Positions 26,964 to 33,885 of a DNA stretch of 41,392 bases are shown piece after piece (position 1 is the first letter of the stretch; every line of letters begins with the position of its first letter). The translations under genes and the position numbers were made by a program. The notes below the pieces were generated by a model. That model was not told where the DNA came from and made no database searches. It saw nothing but the letters and a program-made list of their open reading frames with translations. Source of the DNA: Synergistaceae bacterium (GTDB taxonomy: Bacteria > Synergistota > Synergistia > Synergistales > Synergistaceae). Where the stretch lies: NCBI GenBank assembly GCA_031268885.1, contig JAIRWR010000079.1, positions 1-41,392 on the forward strand, written 5' to 3'.

Positions 26964-27449
26964 ATGAAAGTCATACAGGGTTCTCTCATAGGTTCGGGGC
27001 TTCGTTTCGCCCTGATTGTGTCACGTTTCAACGAGCTCATTTCGAGCAAGCTTCTGGATGGAGCGGTCGATATATTAACTCGGCACGATGTACGTCATCA
27101 GGACATAGAAGTATACTGGGTTCCAGGCGCCTGGGAACTGCCGCTCATAGCCAAGGAGATTGCGCTCTCCGGCAAGCATGACGCGATAGTTGCGCTGGGC
27201 GCGGTCATCCAGGGCGACACCCCTCACGCCGATTACATCTGCGCCGAGACGTCAAAGGGGCTTGCGCTTGTAAGCCTCGATCAGAGAATCCCCGTCAGCT
27301 TCGGCGTGCTCACGTGTTCGAACCTCGAACAGGCGCTTCTGCGGGCTGGGAGCAAGTCCGGAAACAAGGGCTCTGATGCCGCCATGTCGGCGCTGGAGAT
27401 GGCCAATCTTCTCGCCGAGACGAGGCGCGCGCAGGGAGGAAAGGAGTGA
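26964..27449 (+). CDS. ribH: 6,7-dimethyl-8-ribityllumazine synthase
   Basis: Forms lumazine from the RibD product and DHBP, 161 residues, typical size for the icosahedral or decameric enzyme. Start: ATG 26964 with GGAG at 26952-26955. Motifs: RFALIVSRFNELISSKLLDG at the N-terminus, WVPGAWELPLIAKEI, and GAVIQGDTPHADYICAETSK, which includes the catalytic histidine. The stop overlaps the serS ATG by one base. Confidence 0.96.
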   Translation: MKVIQGSLIGSGLRFALIVSRFNELISSKLLDGAVDILTRHDVRHQDIEVYWVPGAWELPLIAKEIALSGKHDAIVALGAVIQGDTPHADYICAETSKGLALVSLDQRIPVSFGVLTCSNLEQALLRAGSKSGNKGSDAAMSALEMANLLAETRRAQGGKE

Positions 27450-28738
27450 TGCTCGATCCAAAGTGGATTCGCGAACATCCGGACGACGTGCGTGAACTTC
27501 TCAGGAGACGCGGTCACGGTTTCGATCTAGACGCCCTGTTGGCGCTCGAATCCGAGAGGCTCGAAGTCCTGAATGAGGTGGAGGGGCTGAGGGCAAAGAG
27601 AAACGACGGGTCCAAGCGGGTCGGGGAGATAAAGAAAAGTGGAGGGGACGCATCCTCCCTGGTCGAGGAGATGAAGACCACAGGCGAGAAAATACGCGAG
27701 ATGGACTCGCGTCTGACAGGAATCGAGGATGAGTGGAACAGGCAGCTTCTCCTGATGCCCAACCGGCTGAGCGGCGATGTCCCGATCGGATCCGATGAGA
27801 GCGCGAACATCGAGATAAGGAGATGGGGAGAGCCCGGAGAGTATTCGTTTGAGCCCAGACCTCACTGGGAGCTCGGCGAATCCCTCGGCATAATGGACTT
27901 CGAGAGAGGCGCAAGGCTGGCGGAGAGCAGGTTCACCGTCCTGAGAGGCGCTGGAGCCAGGCTGGAACGAGGCCTTATCAATTTCATGCTCGACCTCCAC
28001 ACCACCAAACACGGATACGTTGAGATACTACCGCCGATGCTGGTCAACAGCGCGACTATGACCGGAACTGGGCAGCTCCCCAAGTTCGCCGACGATCAGT
28101 ACAAGTGCGTAAATGACGACCTGTGGCTCATTCCAACCGCCGAGGTGCCCCTGACTAATCTGCACTACGGCGAGATACTGAGCGAGTCGGACCTACCTCT
28201 CCTCTACACCGCTTACACTGTCTGTTTCAGGAGAGAGGCCGGTTCGTACGGCCGTGACATGAGGGGTATGCTGAGACAGCACCAGTTTGACAAGGTGGAG
28301 CTGGTAAAGCTGTGCGCCCCCGAGACAAGCTATCGCGAGCTCGACCTGCTCCTTGAGGACGCGGAGAGCGTTCTGCGGGCGCTGGAGCTGCCGTACAGGG
28401 TTGTGGTCCTCTCATCAGGGGACATAGGCAACGCGGCCGCCAAGACATACGACATCGAGGTCTGGCTTCCGTCGCAGGGTTGCTATCGGGAGATAAGCTC
28501 GTGCAGCAACTGTGAGGATTTTCAGTCCCGCAGAATGGGGACGAGATATCGCATGAAGGACGGGGGCAAGATCGGATTCGTTCACACGCTGAATGGATCG
28601 GGAATCGCGGTTGGCCGCTGCCTCATCGCCATTATGGAGAACTTCCAGGAGGAAAACGGTTGCGTCTCGATACCAGAAGCGCTCCGCCCGTACGTCGGCG
28701 GGATGAACAGAATAGCCCCTTCATCCGCGGCCAAGTAA
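27449..28738 (+). CDS. serS: serine--tRNA ligase
   Basis: Class II synthetase charging tRNA-Ser (and tRNA-Sec if present), 429 residues. The start at ATG 27449 follows GGGAGG (27434-27439) by nine bases. The N-terminal coiled-coil arm (to about 105) is normal. Class II motif 2 is CFRREAGSYGRDMRGMLRQH and motif 3 GSGIAVGRCLIAIMEN. The TAEVPLTNLH serine-binding region is present. It is the last of the rib-linked string and ends one base before the next gene. Confidence 0.97.
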   Translation: MLDPKWIREHPDDVRELLRRRGHGFDLDALLALESERLEVLNEVEGLRAKRNDGSKRVGEIKKSGGDASSLVEEMKTTGEKIREMDSRLTGIEDEWNRQLLLMPNRLSGDVPIGSDESANIEIRRWGEPGEYSFEPRPHWELGESLGIMDFERGARLAESRFTVLRGAGARLERGLINFMLDLHTTKHGYVEILPPMLVNSATMTGTGQLPKFADDQYKCVNDDLWLIPTAEVPLTNLHYGEILSESDLPLLYTAYTVCFRREAGSYGRDMRGMLRQHQFDKVELVKLCAPETSYRELDLLLEDAESVLRALELPYRVVVLSSGDIGNAAAKTYDIEVWLPSQGCYREISSCSNCEDFQSRRMGTRYRMKDGGKIGFVHTLNGSGIAVGRCLIAIMENFQEENGCVSIPEALRPYVGGMNRIAPSSAAK

Positions 28739-28739
28739 A

Positions 28740-30503
28740 ATGCAGGACTTGTTCCCCGCTGTTTTTGCAAGGGCGGATACCGGATATCTCAGGATGGCGG
28801 CAGTCGTCATGTCGGTCGTCGTCGCGTGCTTTTTCATTCAGAAGACATTCAAGCGGGATCTGGAGAGTGATCAATATTACTACCTGAGGGATATCTGCCT
28901 GATAGCGTCATGGGCGCTCTGCGGCATCTGGACGCAGAGCGTTCCGATGAAGCTGACTATTACCGCGGGGGTGATAGCTGGGCTAATAGGGTTCTGTCAG
29001 AAGGTTGTGAAGAACTGGGATCTTCGTGTCTGCTTTCTGGCTGTCGGCTTTGGTGTCGCCCTACTCGGCCCGCGCATAACTTTCATAGGGCAGCCTGATG
29101 GAGAGTTCTTCTATCTCTCCAGCCTGACGACCATAATGGTGCTGAGTACCCTGTGGATGGGGTTCTTTCCAATTCTCTTCCAGGAGTTCGATGAGATACC
29201 TGGTATGGGAGGAGGCCTCCTGCTTGCGAGCTGGACTCTGATGGTCGTAGTAACCGCTATGTCCTCGAAGGGGCCCTCGGACGCTCTGGTGATGTCGCTC
29301 TGCGGACTCGCCCTGATACTGGTCTTCTGGAGCCGTCACGTAAACGTCTATCGGAGGCTCGGCGCGCCGCTCTCCGCGATGTGGGGAACGCTTCTGGCTG
29401 GAACGTCGATGTTAGGCGCCAGCAAGGGCGTTGCGTTCGCCACCGTCATGATACTTCCGCTTGGGCTCTTTGCCATACCGATATTGGAGACGTCCCTCTG
29501 CGTCCTCTCGGCGGCATTCTCCCCCAGGCCACTGGGAAATATGATGTTCTATCGAAAGCTGGTGCAGGGGGGGATGGATCATCCCTCGGCGGTCTTTACG
29601 GTCTGCGGCATATGCGGCGTATGCGGGATTTCGATGGCCGCGCTTCAGATGAAACTGCTCGACCCGCTGTCGCTGCTCCTGACAGCGCTCTTCCTGATAT
29701 CTGGTTTTCATGTGGCTGTCGCGTGCATTAGGGATTCCGGCAACAGATCGGCGAATCGTCCTTCGCTGTGGGGGGTGGTGGTCGATAACTTTTCGCTCGA
29801 CTACGCGCTCGGCCGTGTGAACGGGTGGCTGTCATCCGGCGGCGGGCCGAGGATAATAGTCACCGTAGACGCACTGGCCGCGCTGCGGAGCAGACGCGAC
29901 AGAAGATACGGCGGCATCGTGAATCGGGCAGGGCTCGTGCTGCCTGACGGAATAGGGCTGATATGGGCGCTGCGCTTCCTCGGGTTCATCGTTCAGGAGA
30001 GGATACCCGGCGTGGAATTTGTGGACCATCTCTGTCGCCTCGCGTCGAGCCGAGGGTGGCCGGTATATTTCTTCGGCGGAAAACCGGGAATCGCGGAGAG
30101 GGCCTCGGAGAAGCTCCGCTCAAAATATCCCGCCCTGGTCGTTGCAGGCTGCAGGAGCGGATTTTTCAAACCGGCGGAGAGCGAGGGTATATGTGAGAAG
30201 ATAAGGGAGTCGGGAGCGAAGGTCGTCTTCGCGGCCCTTGGAGTTCCAAAACAAGAGTACTGGATGGATGACAACCTGGCGAGCATCGGCAGTGTCGTCG
30301 GGGTAGGCGTCGGCGGCAGCTTCGACGTCATCTCCGGCGTGCTGAAGCGCGCCCCGCGGGGTTGGAGAAACATGCGCCTCGAGTGGCTTTACAGGACAAT
30401 TCAAGAACCCGTCAGATGGAAGAGAGTGGCGCGGCTGCCTCTCTTTGTCCTGTTGGTTTTCCTGAAAAAAATCCACCTTGACACATGGCGGCGGTTGACG
30501 TGA
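28740..30503 (+). CDS. fusion of a WecA/MraY-like membrane domain with a WecG/TagA/CpsF glycosyltransferase
   Basis: A 587-residue protein with two parts. Residues 1-345 carry about ten hydrophobic segments whose spacing resembles polyprenyl-phosphate sugar-1-phosphate transferases (PILFQEFDEIPGMGGGLLLA aligns with the usual NLIDGLDGLA region, ETSLCVLSAAFSPRP with the vPilDt...rRl region). The Asp-rich catalytic motifs are not kept: the DGLDG and GDSGS equivalents read DEIPGMGG and LGAPLS. Residues 345-560 are a complete GT26 domain: IVTVDALAALRSR, AGLVLPDGIGLIWALRFLG, PVYFFGGKPGIAERASEKLR, ALGVPKQEYWM, GVGGSFDVISGVLKRAPRGW, LEWLYRTIQEPVRWKRVA. Such enzymes add ManNAc or a similar sugar to a lipid-linked GlcNAc during surface polymer synthesis. 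The start has no clear binding site. Confidence 0.8.
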   Translation: MQDLFPAVFARADTGYLRMAAVVMSVVVACFFIQKTFKRDLESDQYYYLRDICLIASWALCGIWTQSVPMKLTITAGVIAGLIGFCQKVVKNWDLRVCFLAVGFGVALLGPRITFIGQPDGEFFYLSSLTTIMVLSTLWMGFFPILFQEFDEIPGMGGGLLLASWTLMVVVTAMSSKGPSDALVMSLCGLALILVFWSRHVNVYRRLGAPLSAMWGTLLAGTSMLGASKGVAFATVMILPLGLFAIPILETSLCVLSAAFSPRPLGNMMFYRKLVQGGMDHPSAVFTVCGICGVCGISMAALQMKLLDPLSLLLTALFLISGFHVAVACIRDSGNRSANRPSLWGVVVDNFSLDYALGRVNGWLSSGGGPRIIVTVDALAALRSRRDRRYGGIVNRAGLVLPDGIGLIWALRFLGFIVQERIPGVEFVDHLCRLASSRGWPVYFFGGKPGIAERASEKLRSKYPALVVAGCRSGFFKPAESEGICEKIRESGAKVVFAALGVPKQEYWMDDNLASIGSVVGVGVGGSFDVISGVLKRAPRGWRNMRLEWLYRTIQEPVRWKRVARLPLFVLLVFLKKIHLDTWRRLT

Positions 30504-31543: not shown

Positions 31544-32713
31544 GTGCCTGAAACAGGAATAAATGGAATAATGAAGATCACGCTTAGAATAATACTGACG
31601 CTTGTCTGCGGAGTAGCGGGTTATCAGCTGTCTTTACTGATACTTCAACTTGAGCTTAAATGGGTGACGGAACTCGCCCACCCAAATATTTGGATGGCTT
31701 TTTCCATATTGTTGTTCGCTCTCTGCGGAAACCTATTGACGCCGATAATATGGTGGGCTCTCAAGAAAACCGGCGCGCTGTTCGAAAACATGCTTCAGGA
31801 CGTGAGCATTCCGGACATCGCTGTCGCTCTTATGGGATTGATATTGAGCCTCTTGCTCGCCAATCTTTTTGCGATACCGCTCATGGGAATTCCAGGAATT
31901 GGTTTCTACATAGCCATAGCCCTCAACATACTGTTTGCCTTCGTGGGCATGCGGGCGTTTTTGAAGAGGCGGGACGATGTTTGGGCGTTCGCGCTCGGAG
32001 TGGTCGGTTTTGGCGGCCGCTTACATTCCAGAAAAAAGGATAAGAACGCGGCTGGCGACGGCGGAGGCACGGTGATTATCGGAACTGCCGCGTATGAAGA
32101 ACATCCTTCCGATGCCAGCAAGAAAGTGCTGGATACAAGCGCGCTCATCGACGGCAGAATCTTGGACATCGCAATGACCGGCTTTCTCGAGGGAACGCTG
32201 GTGCTGCCAAGATTTGTGCTGACCGAACTCCAGGGCGTCGCCGACTCCTCCGAGCCAGCCAGGCGGGCGAGGGGCAGGAAGGGGCTCACGGTGGTGTCCG
32301 AGCTTCAGCGGATCGATAATATGACGGTCAGCATCGAGGACTTCAGTATGAAGGAGCTCAAAAGGGACAAGGTCGACGAGGCTCTAGTCGAACTGTGCAA
32401 GAAACTTGACGCAAAGATAATCACCACGGACTATAACCTCAATCAGATCTCCAGAATTGAGGGCATTCCCGTCTTGAATGTAAACGAGCTCGCCAACTCA
32501 CTGAAACCGCAGTTCCTGCCCGGAGAGGTCGTGAAGATCGACGTGATCCGCCCAGGAAAGGAGCACGGCCAGGGCATAGGCTACCTCGAGGATGGGACCA
32601 TGCTGGTGGTCGAGGACGGATCCGGGGCCATAGGAGAGACGGTAGATGTCGTAATCACATCCATGCTCCAGACCGCCGCCGGCAGGATGGTATTCGGCAA
32701 ACTCAGGAGATGA
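31544..32713 (+). CDS. YacL-type membrane protein with PIN and TRAM domains
   Basis: A membrane-bound putative RNase, 389 residues with the start at GTG 31544, eight bases after GGGAG (31531-31535). An upstream in-frame GTG at 31478 sits one base after an AGGAGG, too close. Four transmembrane helices (to about residue 145) precede a PIN nuclease domain (KVLDTSALIDGRILDIAMTG, then EALVELCKKLDAKIITTDYN with its acidic residues) and a C-terminal TRAM RNA-binding domain (LPGEVVKIDVIRPGKEHGQG). The architecture is that of the B. subtilis YacL. It follows recR and overlaps ispDF by ATGA, a common neighbour order for the yac region. Confidence 0.9.
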   Translation: MPETGINGIMKITLRIILTLVCGVAGYQLSLLILQLELKWVTELAHPNIWMAFSILLFALCGNLLTPIIWWALKKTGALFENMLQDVSIPDIAVALMGLILSLLLANLFAIPLMGIPGIGFYIAIALNILFAFVGMRAFLKRRDDVWAFALGVVGFGGRLHSRKKDKNAAGDGGGTVIIGTAAYEEHPSDASKKVLDTSALIDGRILDIAMTGFLEGTLVLPRFVLTELQGVADSSEPARRARGRKGLTVVSELQRIDNMTVSIEDFSMKELKRDKVDEALVELCKKLDAKIITTDYNLNQISRIEGIPVLNVNELANSLKPQFLPGEVVKIDVIRPGKEHGQGIGYLEDGTMLVVEDGSGAIGETVDVVITSMLQTAAGRMVFGKLRR

Positions 32714-33885
32714 GCCAGGCTATCGGAACCTGGTCTTTTATACTTGCCGCGGCAGGGTCGGGGTCCCGGATGGGCGGGGCGCCCAAACAGTTCCGAATAC
32801 TTGGGGACAGGCCAATGTGGGTCTGGTCGGCCATGGTCGCCGAGGAGCTCTACTCACGCGGGAAAATAGACGAGCTGATAGTGATTGTGCCAAGCGGCAG
32901 GGAAGATTCACTCGGTCCGTTCAGCTTCAGTTGTCCCACGACCGTCACAGTCGGTGGGAGCACTAGGTCGGAGTCGGTGAGGAGAGGTCTTGCCGCGGCT
33001 CATTCCGATTTCGTGCTCATTCATGACGCCGCGAGACCGTTTCTGGACGCCGATATCTGTGAAGCGCTGATGAACGCGACGACCAAACCGCGAGGAGCCG
33101 TGCCTCTGTTGAGTTCAGTGGACTCCCTCAAGAGGATCGAGGGGGACCGCATATACGCGGTTCCGAGAGCCGAGATAAGAAGGACGCAGACTCCACAGGC
33201 ATTTTACAGGGAGTCCATAGCAAAAGTACTTGAGGCCTCGCCCGAAGGCTCCACGGATGAGGCCTCGCTCTGGCTCGAAATGTTTGGAGATCTCGCCTGC
33301 GTGGATGGTTCTGAAAAGAATTTCAAGGTGACTACCGAGTTCGACTGGCTTGTAGCTGTGTCCATCGTAAACTGTTCGAAGGAGACACGGGTCGGACTCG
33401 GCTATGACGTTCACGAACTTATACCCGGGCGCAGGCTCATTCTAGGGGGCGTCGAAATTTCGTCCATGCTTGGGTTACTTGGCCACTCGGATGCCGACAT
33501 AATATGTCACGCGGTCTCCGACGCGCTGCTTGGAGCCGCGGGAGAGGGCGACATAGGGACGCTGTTCCCCGCGTCCGACGAGTCCTATAGGGACGCGGAC
33601 AGCACAGCGCTCCTTACCGATGTTATCGGGTTGATAACAAAAAAACACTGGCGCATATCGTGGATTAGCGTCGTCTTGATCGCTCAGATTCCTAAATTGG
33701 GAAGATATATGCCGATAATAGCGGATAACTTACAGAAACTCTTTACTAGTTCGCCATCTGACGTTAAACTTAGCGTCAAGGTAAAGTCGGGTGAGTCTGT
33801 TGGAAGTACGGGACGTGCCGAATGTATGGTCTGTCATGCGGTGGCTACGTTGGAGCGCTTTAGTTTGAAAGAAAGGTGTGTTTGA
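32710..33885 (+). CDS. ispDF: bifunctional IspD/IspF isoprenoid enzyme
   Basis: Carries steps three and five of the MEP pathway to IPP/DMAPP in one 391-residue chain. The IspD part (1-225) has FILAAAGSGSRMGGAPKQFR with the CTP loop and DAARPFLDADI. The IspF part (229-391) has the zinc ligands GYDVHELIPGRRL and LLGHSDADIICHAVSDALLG. The region near 355-365 is unusual: KVKSGESVGSTGR stands where TTTEGLGFTGR is normal, but the metal-binding Glu is kept. VVLIAQIPKLGRYMP replaces the usual DATIIAERPKL. ATG overlaps the previous stop (ATGA). Confidence 0.94.
   Translation: MSQAIGTWSFILAAAGSGSRMGGAPKQFRILGDRPMWVWSAMVAEELYSRGKIDELIVIVPSGREDSLGPFSFSCPTTVTVGGSTRSESVRRGLAAAHSDFVLIHDAARPFLDADICEALMNATTKPRGAVPLLSSVDSLKRIEGDRIYAVPRAEIRRTQTPQAFYRESIAKVLEASPEGSTDEASLWLEMFGDLACVDGSEKNFKVTTEFDWLVAVSIVNCSKETRVGLGYDVHELIPGRRLILGGVEISSMLGLLGHSDADIICHAVSDALLGAAGEGDIGTLFPASDESYRDADSTALLTDVIGLITKKHWRISWISVVLIAQIPKLGRYMPIIADNLQKLFTSSPSDVKLSVKVKSGESVGSTGRAECMVCHAVATLERFSLKERCV

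Follow-up and report, generated by a model that had tools for sequence, protein, structure and literature searches.

A phylum-wide fusion of a catalytically degenerate WecA/TagO-like membrane domain with a TagA-type glycosyltransferase in Synergistota

Results

Architecture of the fused gene

The window, which is the whole 41,392-nucleotide stretch of Synergistaceae DNA that we analyzed, carries on its forward strand an uninterrupted ATG-initiated open reading frame (ORF; positions 28740 to 30503) for a protein of 587 amino acids. The gene is single-copy in its genome. Among named records, those closest to it come from metagenome-assembled genomes of Synergistaceae, and the fusion was not seen on plasmids, where no record covered 80% of the query. 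In other systems, the lipid-linked first sugar and the second sugar are added by separate proteins. Here, a membrane domain resembling the first enzyme precedes a domain for the second step, in the following arrangement:

27446 to 28738, plus strand: serS, the upstream neighbor through most of the phylum, including its deep family, and a mark of vertical inheritance (neighborhood comparison)
28740 to 30503, plus strand: complete fusion gene (587 aa), a pseudo-WecA/TagO membrane domain joined to a GT26 glycosyltransferase, present in 178 of 188 phylum genomes
28740 to 29753, plus strand: MraY/WecA-fold membrane domain, residues 1-338, with 11 predicted membrane helices and predicted to be catalytically degenerate (AlphaFold, Foldseek, alignment, profiles)
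29664 to 29738, plus strand: predicted 11th membrane helix, residues 309-333, returning the chain to the cytoplasm ahead of GT26 (AlphaFold model; loop charge distribution)
29763 to 30473, plus strand: complete GT26 (WecG/TagA) domain with C-terminal membrane appendage, residues 342-578 (PF03808, TagA match, Foldseek)

Elsewhere in the window (32710 to 33885), IspD and IspF are apparently encoded by one fused ORF of 391 aa.

Fold and ancestry of the N-terminal half

The N-terminal half of the window protein had no Pfam or NCBIfam match, PF00953 included. We therefore relied on an AlphaFold2 model built with 49 natural homologues (mean pLDDT 85.8, pTM 0.58), in which the moderate confidence of membrane helices 9-11 (pLDDT about 55-86) and the pTM value leave the placement of the two halves relative to each other unfixed. 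Foldseek searches of the PDB with the N-terminal half retrieved MraY (8tlu, E 8.6e-7; 5ckr, target TM-score 0.66) and human DPAGT1 (5lev, E 1.5e-4) as the only good folds, the next match dropping sharply to an E of 0.09. Hence, the WecA-like domain proposed in the initial annotation of this DNA was borne out by structure prediction and superposition-type searches. The same annotation had counted ten helices; the membrane domain stands, but the model has eleven. This number places the end of the chain in the cytoplasm, where the GT26 domain must be, and the charges of the loops agree with it.

Profile comparisons gave a similar picture. A homologue in a deep-branching family (f11) matches PF00953 with 40.6 bits against a curated cut-off of 27, and the remaining family aligns with f11 at an hhalign probability of 99.3%. 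The comparison with WecA needed a family of WecA sequences rather than the genome's own WecA alone; against a WecA/WbpL-like set, the remaining family reached 89% (E 2e-6), whereas shuffled and reversed controls gave E values of 0.02 or worse. Further, the whole-family model also reached ordinary WecA-like proteins from Actinomycetota that stand alone (positions 38-322, best E 1.3e-24). The fold match and the profile controls rule out chance resemblance or unrelated membrane helices, and sequence profiles and predicted structure together make a solid case that the N-terminal half is homologous to, and adopts the predicted fold of, the polyprenyl-phosphate GlcNAc-1-phosphate transferases (MraY/WecA).

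Loss of catalytic motifs

We counted catalytic motifs in 71 homologues, with positions set by alignment with active relatives:

28851 to 28892, plus strand: residues 38-51, KRDLESDQYYYLRD, where WecA cytoplasmic loop 1 (RK.H..PTP.LGG) is shortened and replaced by a fusion-conserved motif, with D51 conserved in at least 90% (alignments)
28989 to 28994, plus strand: G84-F85 at the catalytic Asp-Asp pair of WecA/MraY, the pair lost in 71 of 71 (alignment)
29190 to 29204, plus strand: residues 151-155, DEIPG, at DGxDG, with the first Asp kept in 71 of 71 and the second lost in 71 of 71 (alignment)
29358 to 29375, plus strand: residues 207-212, LGAPLS, at the metal-site motif MGDSGS, the Asp lost in 69 of 71 (alignment)
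29538 to 29558, plus strand: residues 267-273, NMMFYRK, at HxHH, with Y271 invariant (alignment)

The lipid phosphate is bound in MraY by the first Asp of this pair, and D265 is located at the Mg2+ (PMC5039524). A209 occupies the position of the metal-site Asp in the window protein, and the two homologues that keep this Asp are themselves without the Asp-Asp pair. M268, F270 and Y271 stand where the HxHH histidines would be (MMFY), and no homologue retains a histidine there (0 of 71). The claim that the catalytic aspartates are missing was thus correct for the Asp-Asp pair, the second Asp of DGxDG and, with two exceptions, the metal site, but not for the first Asp of DGxDG, D151, which is invariant. 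Catalytic residues sought elsewhere in the membrane domain, using the alignments of the 71 homologues, were not found. Loss of catalysis by the N-terminal half across the whole phylum is, on these alignments, a well-supported prediction.

The old active-site positions did acquire new conserved motifs. D151, G155 and Y271 are invariant across the phylum, with Y271 an example of a new invariant residue at a former catalytic position, and W197, R199, K229 and H281 are nearly so. The invariance of D151 and these new motifs could be read as a sign that the N-terminal half is still catalytic and performs a different phosphosugar transfer with remodeled residues (D151, E152 and Y271), making the protein bifunctional. 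We consider this very improbable. The Asp pair, the second DGxDG Asp, the metal-site Asp, the histidines and the sugar-nucleotide loop have all been lost, and separate MraY and WecA proteins exist. A bifunctional active enzyme was ruled out among the candidates considered, with key catalytic motifs missing across the family.

An intact GT26 domain

The C-terminal half is, by sequence and predicted structure, an intact TagA-type GT26 domain, in agreement with the initial annotation, and a predicted N-acetylmannosaminyltransferase. It matches PF03808 with 205.5 bits (6.2e-61; curated cut-off 27.4) and Thermoanaerobacter italicus TagA at 3e-44, residues 340-577 aligned. Further, Foldseek superposed it on TagA 7n41, which has the GT-E fold (E 7e-13, target TM-score 0.95). 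We used as references the TagA residues Thr37, Asp65 (the catalytic base), Arg214 and Arg221 (PMC6493773), all of which have equivalents in the fusion:

29862 to 29864, plus strand: T375, equivalent of TagA Thr37, kept in 71 of 71 (alignment)
29946 to 29948, plus strand: D403, equivalent of the TagA catalytic base Asp65, kept in 71 of 71 (alignment; role from PMC6493773)
30393 to 30416, plus strand: R552 to R559, equivalents of TagA Arg214 and Arg221, kept in every sequence that reaches this point (alignment)

The half also keeps the TagA-type hydrophobic C-terminal appendage (L547, L550, I554, L571). Specificity for ManNAc is suggested by the epimerase and CsaB encoded in the same genome.

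A separate WecA and the origin of the degenerate domain

The search for a separate, active-type WecA was successful. A short WecA with intact motifs (NFVDGMDGLA, FLGDGG and HAHH) is encoded on another contig, at L159:4307-5257, directly followed by the gene for UDP-GlcNAc 2-epimerase (wecB), and MraY is also encoded in the genome. Most Synergistota genomes likewise have two PF00953 proteins besides the fusion. Directly before the wecA-wecB pair, ribose/galactose isomerase (RpiB) and uracil phosphoribosyltransferase form one fused ORF of 366 aa (L159:3271-4368, contig C82).

By sequence profiles, the degenerate domain descends from the long WecA/TagO branch rather than from the short WecA of the same genome. 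Against a family profile built without the deep f11 members, long WecA/TagO proteins reach 42-52 bits, while the genome's short WecA and its MraY come out at about zero against the N-terminal domain model; the long proteins had been picked for matching the full family model, which makes the contrast partly selected and leaves the bit scores standing. Descent from the genome's own WecA was rejected on these scores. The simplest and likely history is one in which neighboring tagO and tagA genes fused and TagO catalysis was lost once the short WecA had taken over initiation; in present-day Paenibacillus alvei, tagO, tagA and csaB are co-transcribed (PMC6030368).

Selection and distribution

The fusion is present in 115 of 116 good-quality Synergistota genomes. 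Among the 17 genomes tested, those bearing the fusion had no other GT26 and those lacking it had no GT26 at all; fusion-less genomes are mostly incomplete, and absence is therefore usually a gap in the data. The gene follows serS through most of the phylum, f11 included, with variable downstream genes, consistent with vertical inheritance of the fusion alongside serS. An assembly artifact was ruled out by the same single ORF in many independent genomes, some of them single-contig. In two genomes (G185 and G076), the fusion reads as two adjacent ORFs, reflecting a sequencing frameshift or a real split. Among the matches listed, best first, for the phylum that includes an Acidaminococcaceae genome (398 genomes) and the phylum that includes an Acidimicrobiales genome (149 genomes), none joined the N-terminal domain to GT26. 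Nine long GT26 ORFs from two other phyla were read as candidates for the same fusion and rejected: eight are CsaB-GT26 fusions and the ninth (738 aa) had no match to the N-terminal domain. In the eight, the pyruvyltransferase is joined to the ManNAc transferase whose product CsaB is expected to modify.

The degenerate domain is under purifying selection as strong as that on the GT26 half, with dN/dS against close relatives of 0.07-0.10 and 0.09-0.11, respectively, values that are rough because dS is near saturation. Selection and phylum-wide retention rule out domain decay. Pairwise distances in one half track those in the other (correlation 0.90), which is what a fusion of long standing should show. 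Within the degenerate domain, the cytoplasmic loops are the most conserved part (mean 0.52; p = 0.018), ahead of the membrane helices (0.47) and the periplasmic parts (0.41). The strong purifying selection, the conserved cytoplasmic loops and the retained TagA membrane appendage are all compatible with the membrane scaffold or lipid binder suggested in the initial annotation.

These constraints also bear on whether the N-terminal half could be a mere membrane anchor for the transferase, the remainder of the fold being historical. TagA is active only once it is at the membrane (PMC6493773), and fusion would guarantee this. One helix suffices for anchoring, however, yet eleven are kept across the phylum with invariant or near-invariant residues and a dN/dS near 0.08, and the hydrophobic appendage of TagA itself is likewise retained in the GT26 half. 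We therefore regard a purely anchoring function as quite unlikely.

Discussion

A candidate step in the synthesis of the wall ligand of SLH tethers

Along with WecA and UDP-GlcNAc 2-epimerase, the genome encodes CsaA/CsaB and SLH proteins. The csaB gene lies after a gene for a DUF5693 protein, and CsaB is present in 60 of 61 phylum genomes; neither csaB nor wecAB is clustered with the fusion gene. Four SLH proteins carry the TRYE motif and a C-terminal Phe and are OmpM-like. The OmpM-like SLH proteins of this genome, at least four, form a multi-copy family with nearly identical SLH regions (HWAY, TRYE). OmpM-like tethers have been reported in Synergistetes (PMC9388160), and pyruvylated polymers are bound by SLH domains from several diderm phyla (PMC10628300). 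TagA of P. alvei transfers ManNAc onto the GlcNAc-PP-lipid, and CsaB then pyruvylates this ManNAc (PMC6030368). In other phyla, the nearest GT26 proteins are often encoded beside csaA/csaB or fused to CsaB.

We favor, with reasonable confidence, a model in which the pseudo-TagO half serves as anchor for the ManNAc transferase and probably also binds the GlcNAc-PP-undecaprenyl acceptor of this enzyme, in the synthesis of a pyruvylated polymer that anchors SLH proteins. The short WecA and the UDP-GlcNAc 2-epimerase encoded beside it can supply the acceptor and the donor, the short WecA making GlcNAc-PP-undecaprenol in this model. The pseudo-TagO half would keep the GT26 domain at the inner leaflet and bind the product lipid via the former active-site cleft and lipid groove. 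The GlcNAc-PP-lipid could then be presented to the fused GT26 domain for the addition of ManNAc. CsaB would pyruvylate this ManNAc, giving the wall ligand through which the OmpM-like SLH proteins tether the outer membrane. Presentation of the lipid is not strictly needed, because TagA works without any such domain.

The main rival to lipid-acceptor binding, which we infer to be the most likely role of the degenerate half, is pairing with WecA. The pseudo-TagO half could mainly heterodimerize with the active short WecA, forming a two-step assembly that channels the GlcNAc-PP-lipid from WecA to GT26 or regulates WecA, and not bind the lipid itself. MraY crystallizes and cross-links as a dimer (PMC5039524), nearly every Synergistota genome has the fusion plus a separate non-MraY homologue, and it is the entire fold that is conserved rather than a single helix. 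However, the short WecA lies on another branch than the fused domain, so that a dimer interface conserved by descent is not expected, and their genes are not neighbors. We thus consider pairing unlikely, if less so than simple anchoring, and retain lipid-acceptor binding as the preferred role.

Significance and comparison with known systems

To our knowledge, the transfer of a lipid-linked sugar between its producing enzyme and the following one is a poorly understood part of envelope glycan synthesis. Here, throughout a phylum, a dead first enzyme is naturally fused to a live second one, which separates product binding from catalysis and makes the hand-off question directly testable. More tentatively, the first enzyme of a lipid-linked glycan pathway may, in the whole phylum, have become a module that hands over lipid without catalysis and is covalently joined to the second enzyme, a built-in substrate hand-off that, alone or with the active WecA, would commit the undecaprenyl carrier to the outer-membrane tethering polymer. 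In addition, the fusion suggests how Synergistota may make the wall ligand of their SLH/OmpM tethers, and it brings a conserved polytopic pseudoenzyme into a superfamily with antibiotic targets among its members. The GT26 and MraY/WecA families are themselves known; for the phylum-wide fusion of a dead WecA/TagO to GT26, we found no earlier description in the open-access literature searched.

The fusion shares with the TagA/TarA proteins of T. italicus and P. alvei a complete GT26 domain (33% identity in the structural match), the catalytic Thr/Asp/Arg residues and the hydrophobic C-terminal appendage. TagA is, however, a soluble or peripheral protein of about 245 aa, to which the fusion adds an 11-helix membrane domain. 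With WecA/TagO and MraY (PF00953) it shares a common fold and descent, the long WecA/TagO form being the closest, but it is without the Asp-Asp pair, the metal-site Asp, the second DGxDG Asp, HxHH and loop 1, and is joined to GT26. The CsaB-GT26 fusions and csaA-csaB-tagA clusters of other phyla also tie the same kind of GT26 to the pyruvyltransferase step; in those fusions, however, the partner is the downstream enzyme, CsaB, and not a dead upstream enzyme.
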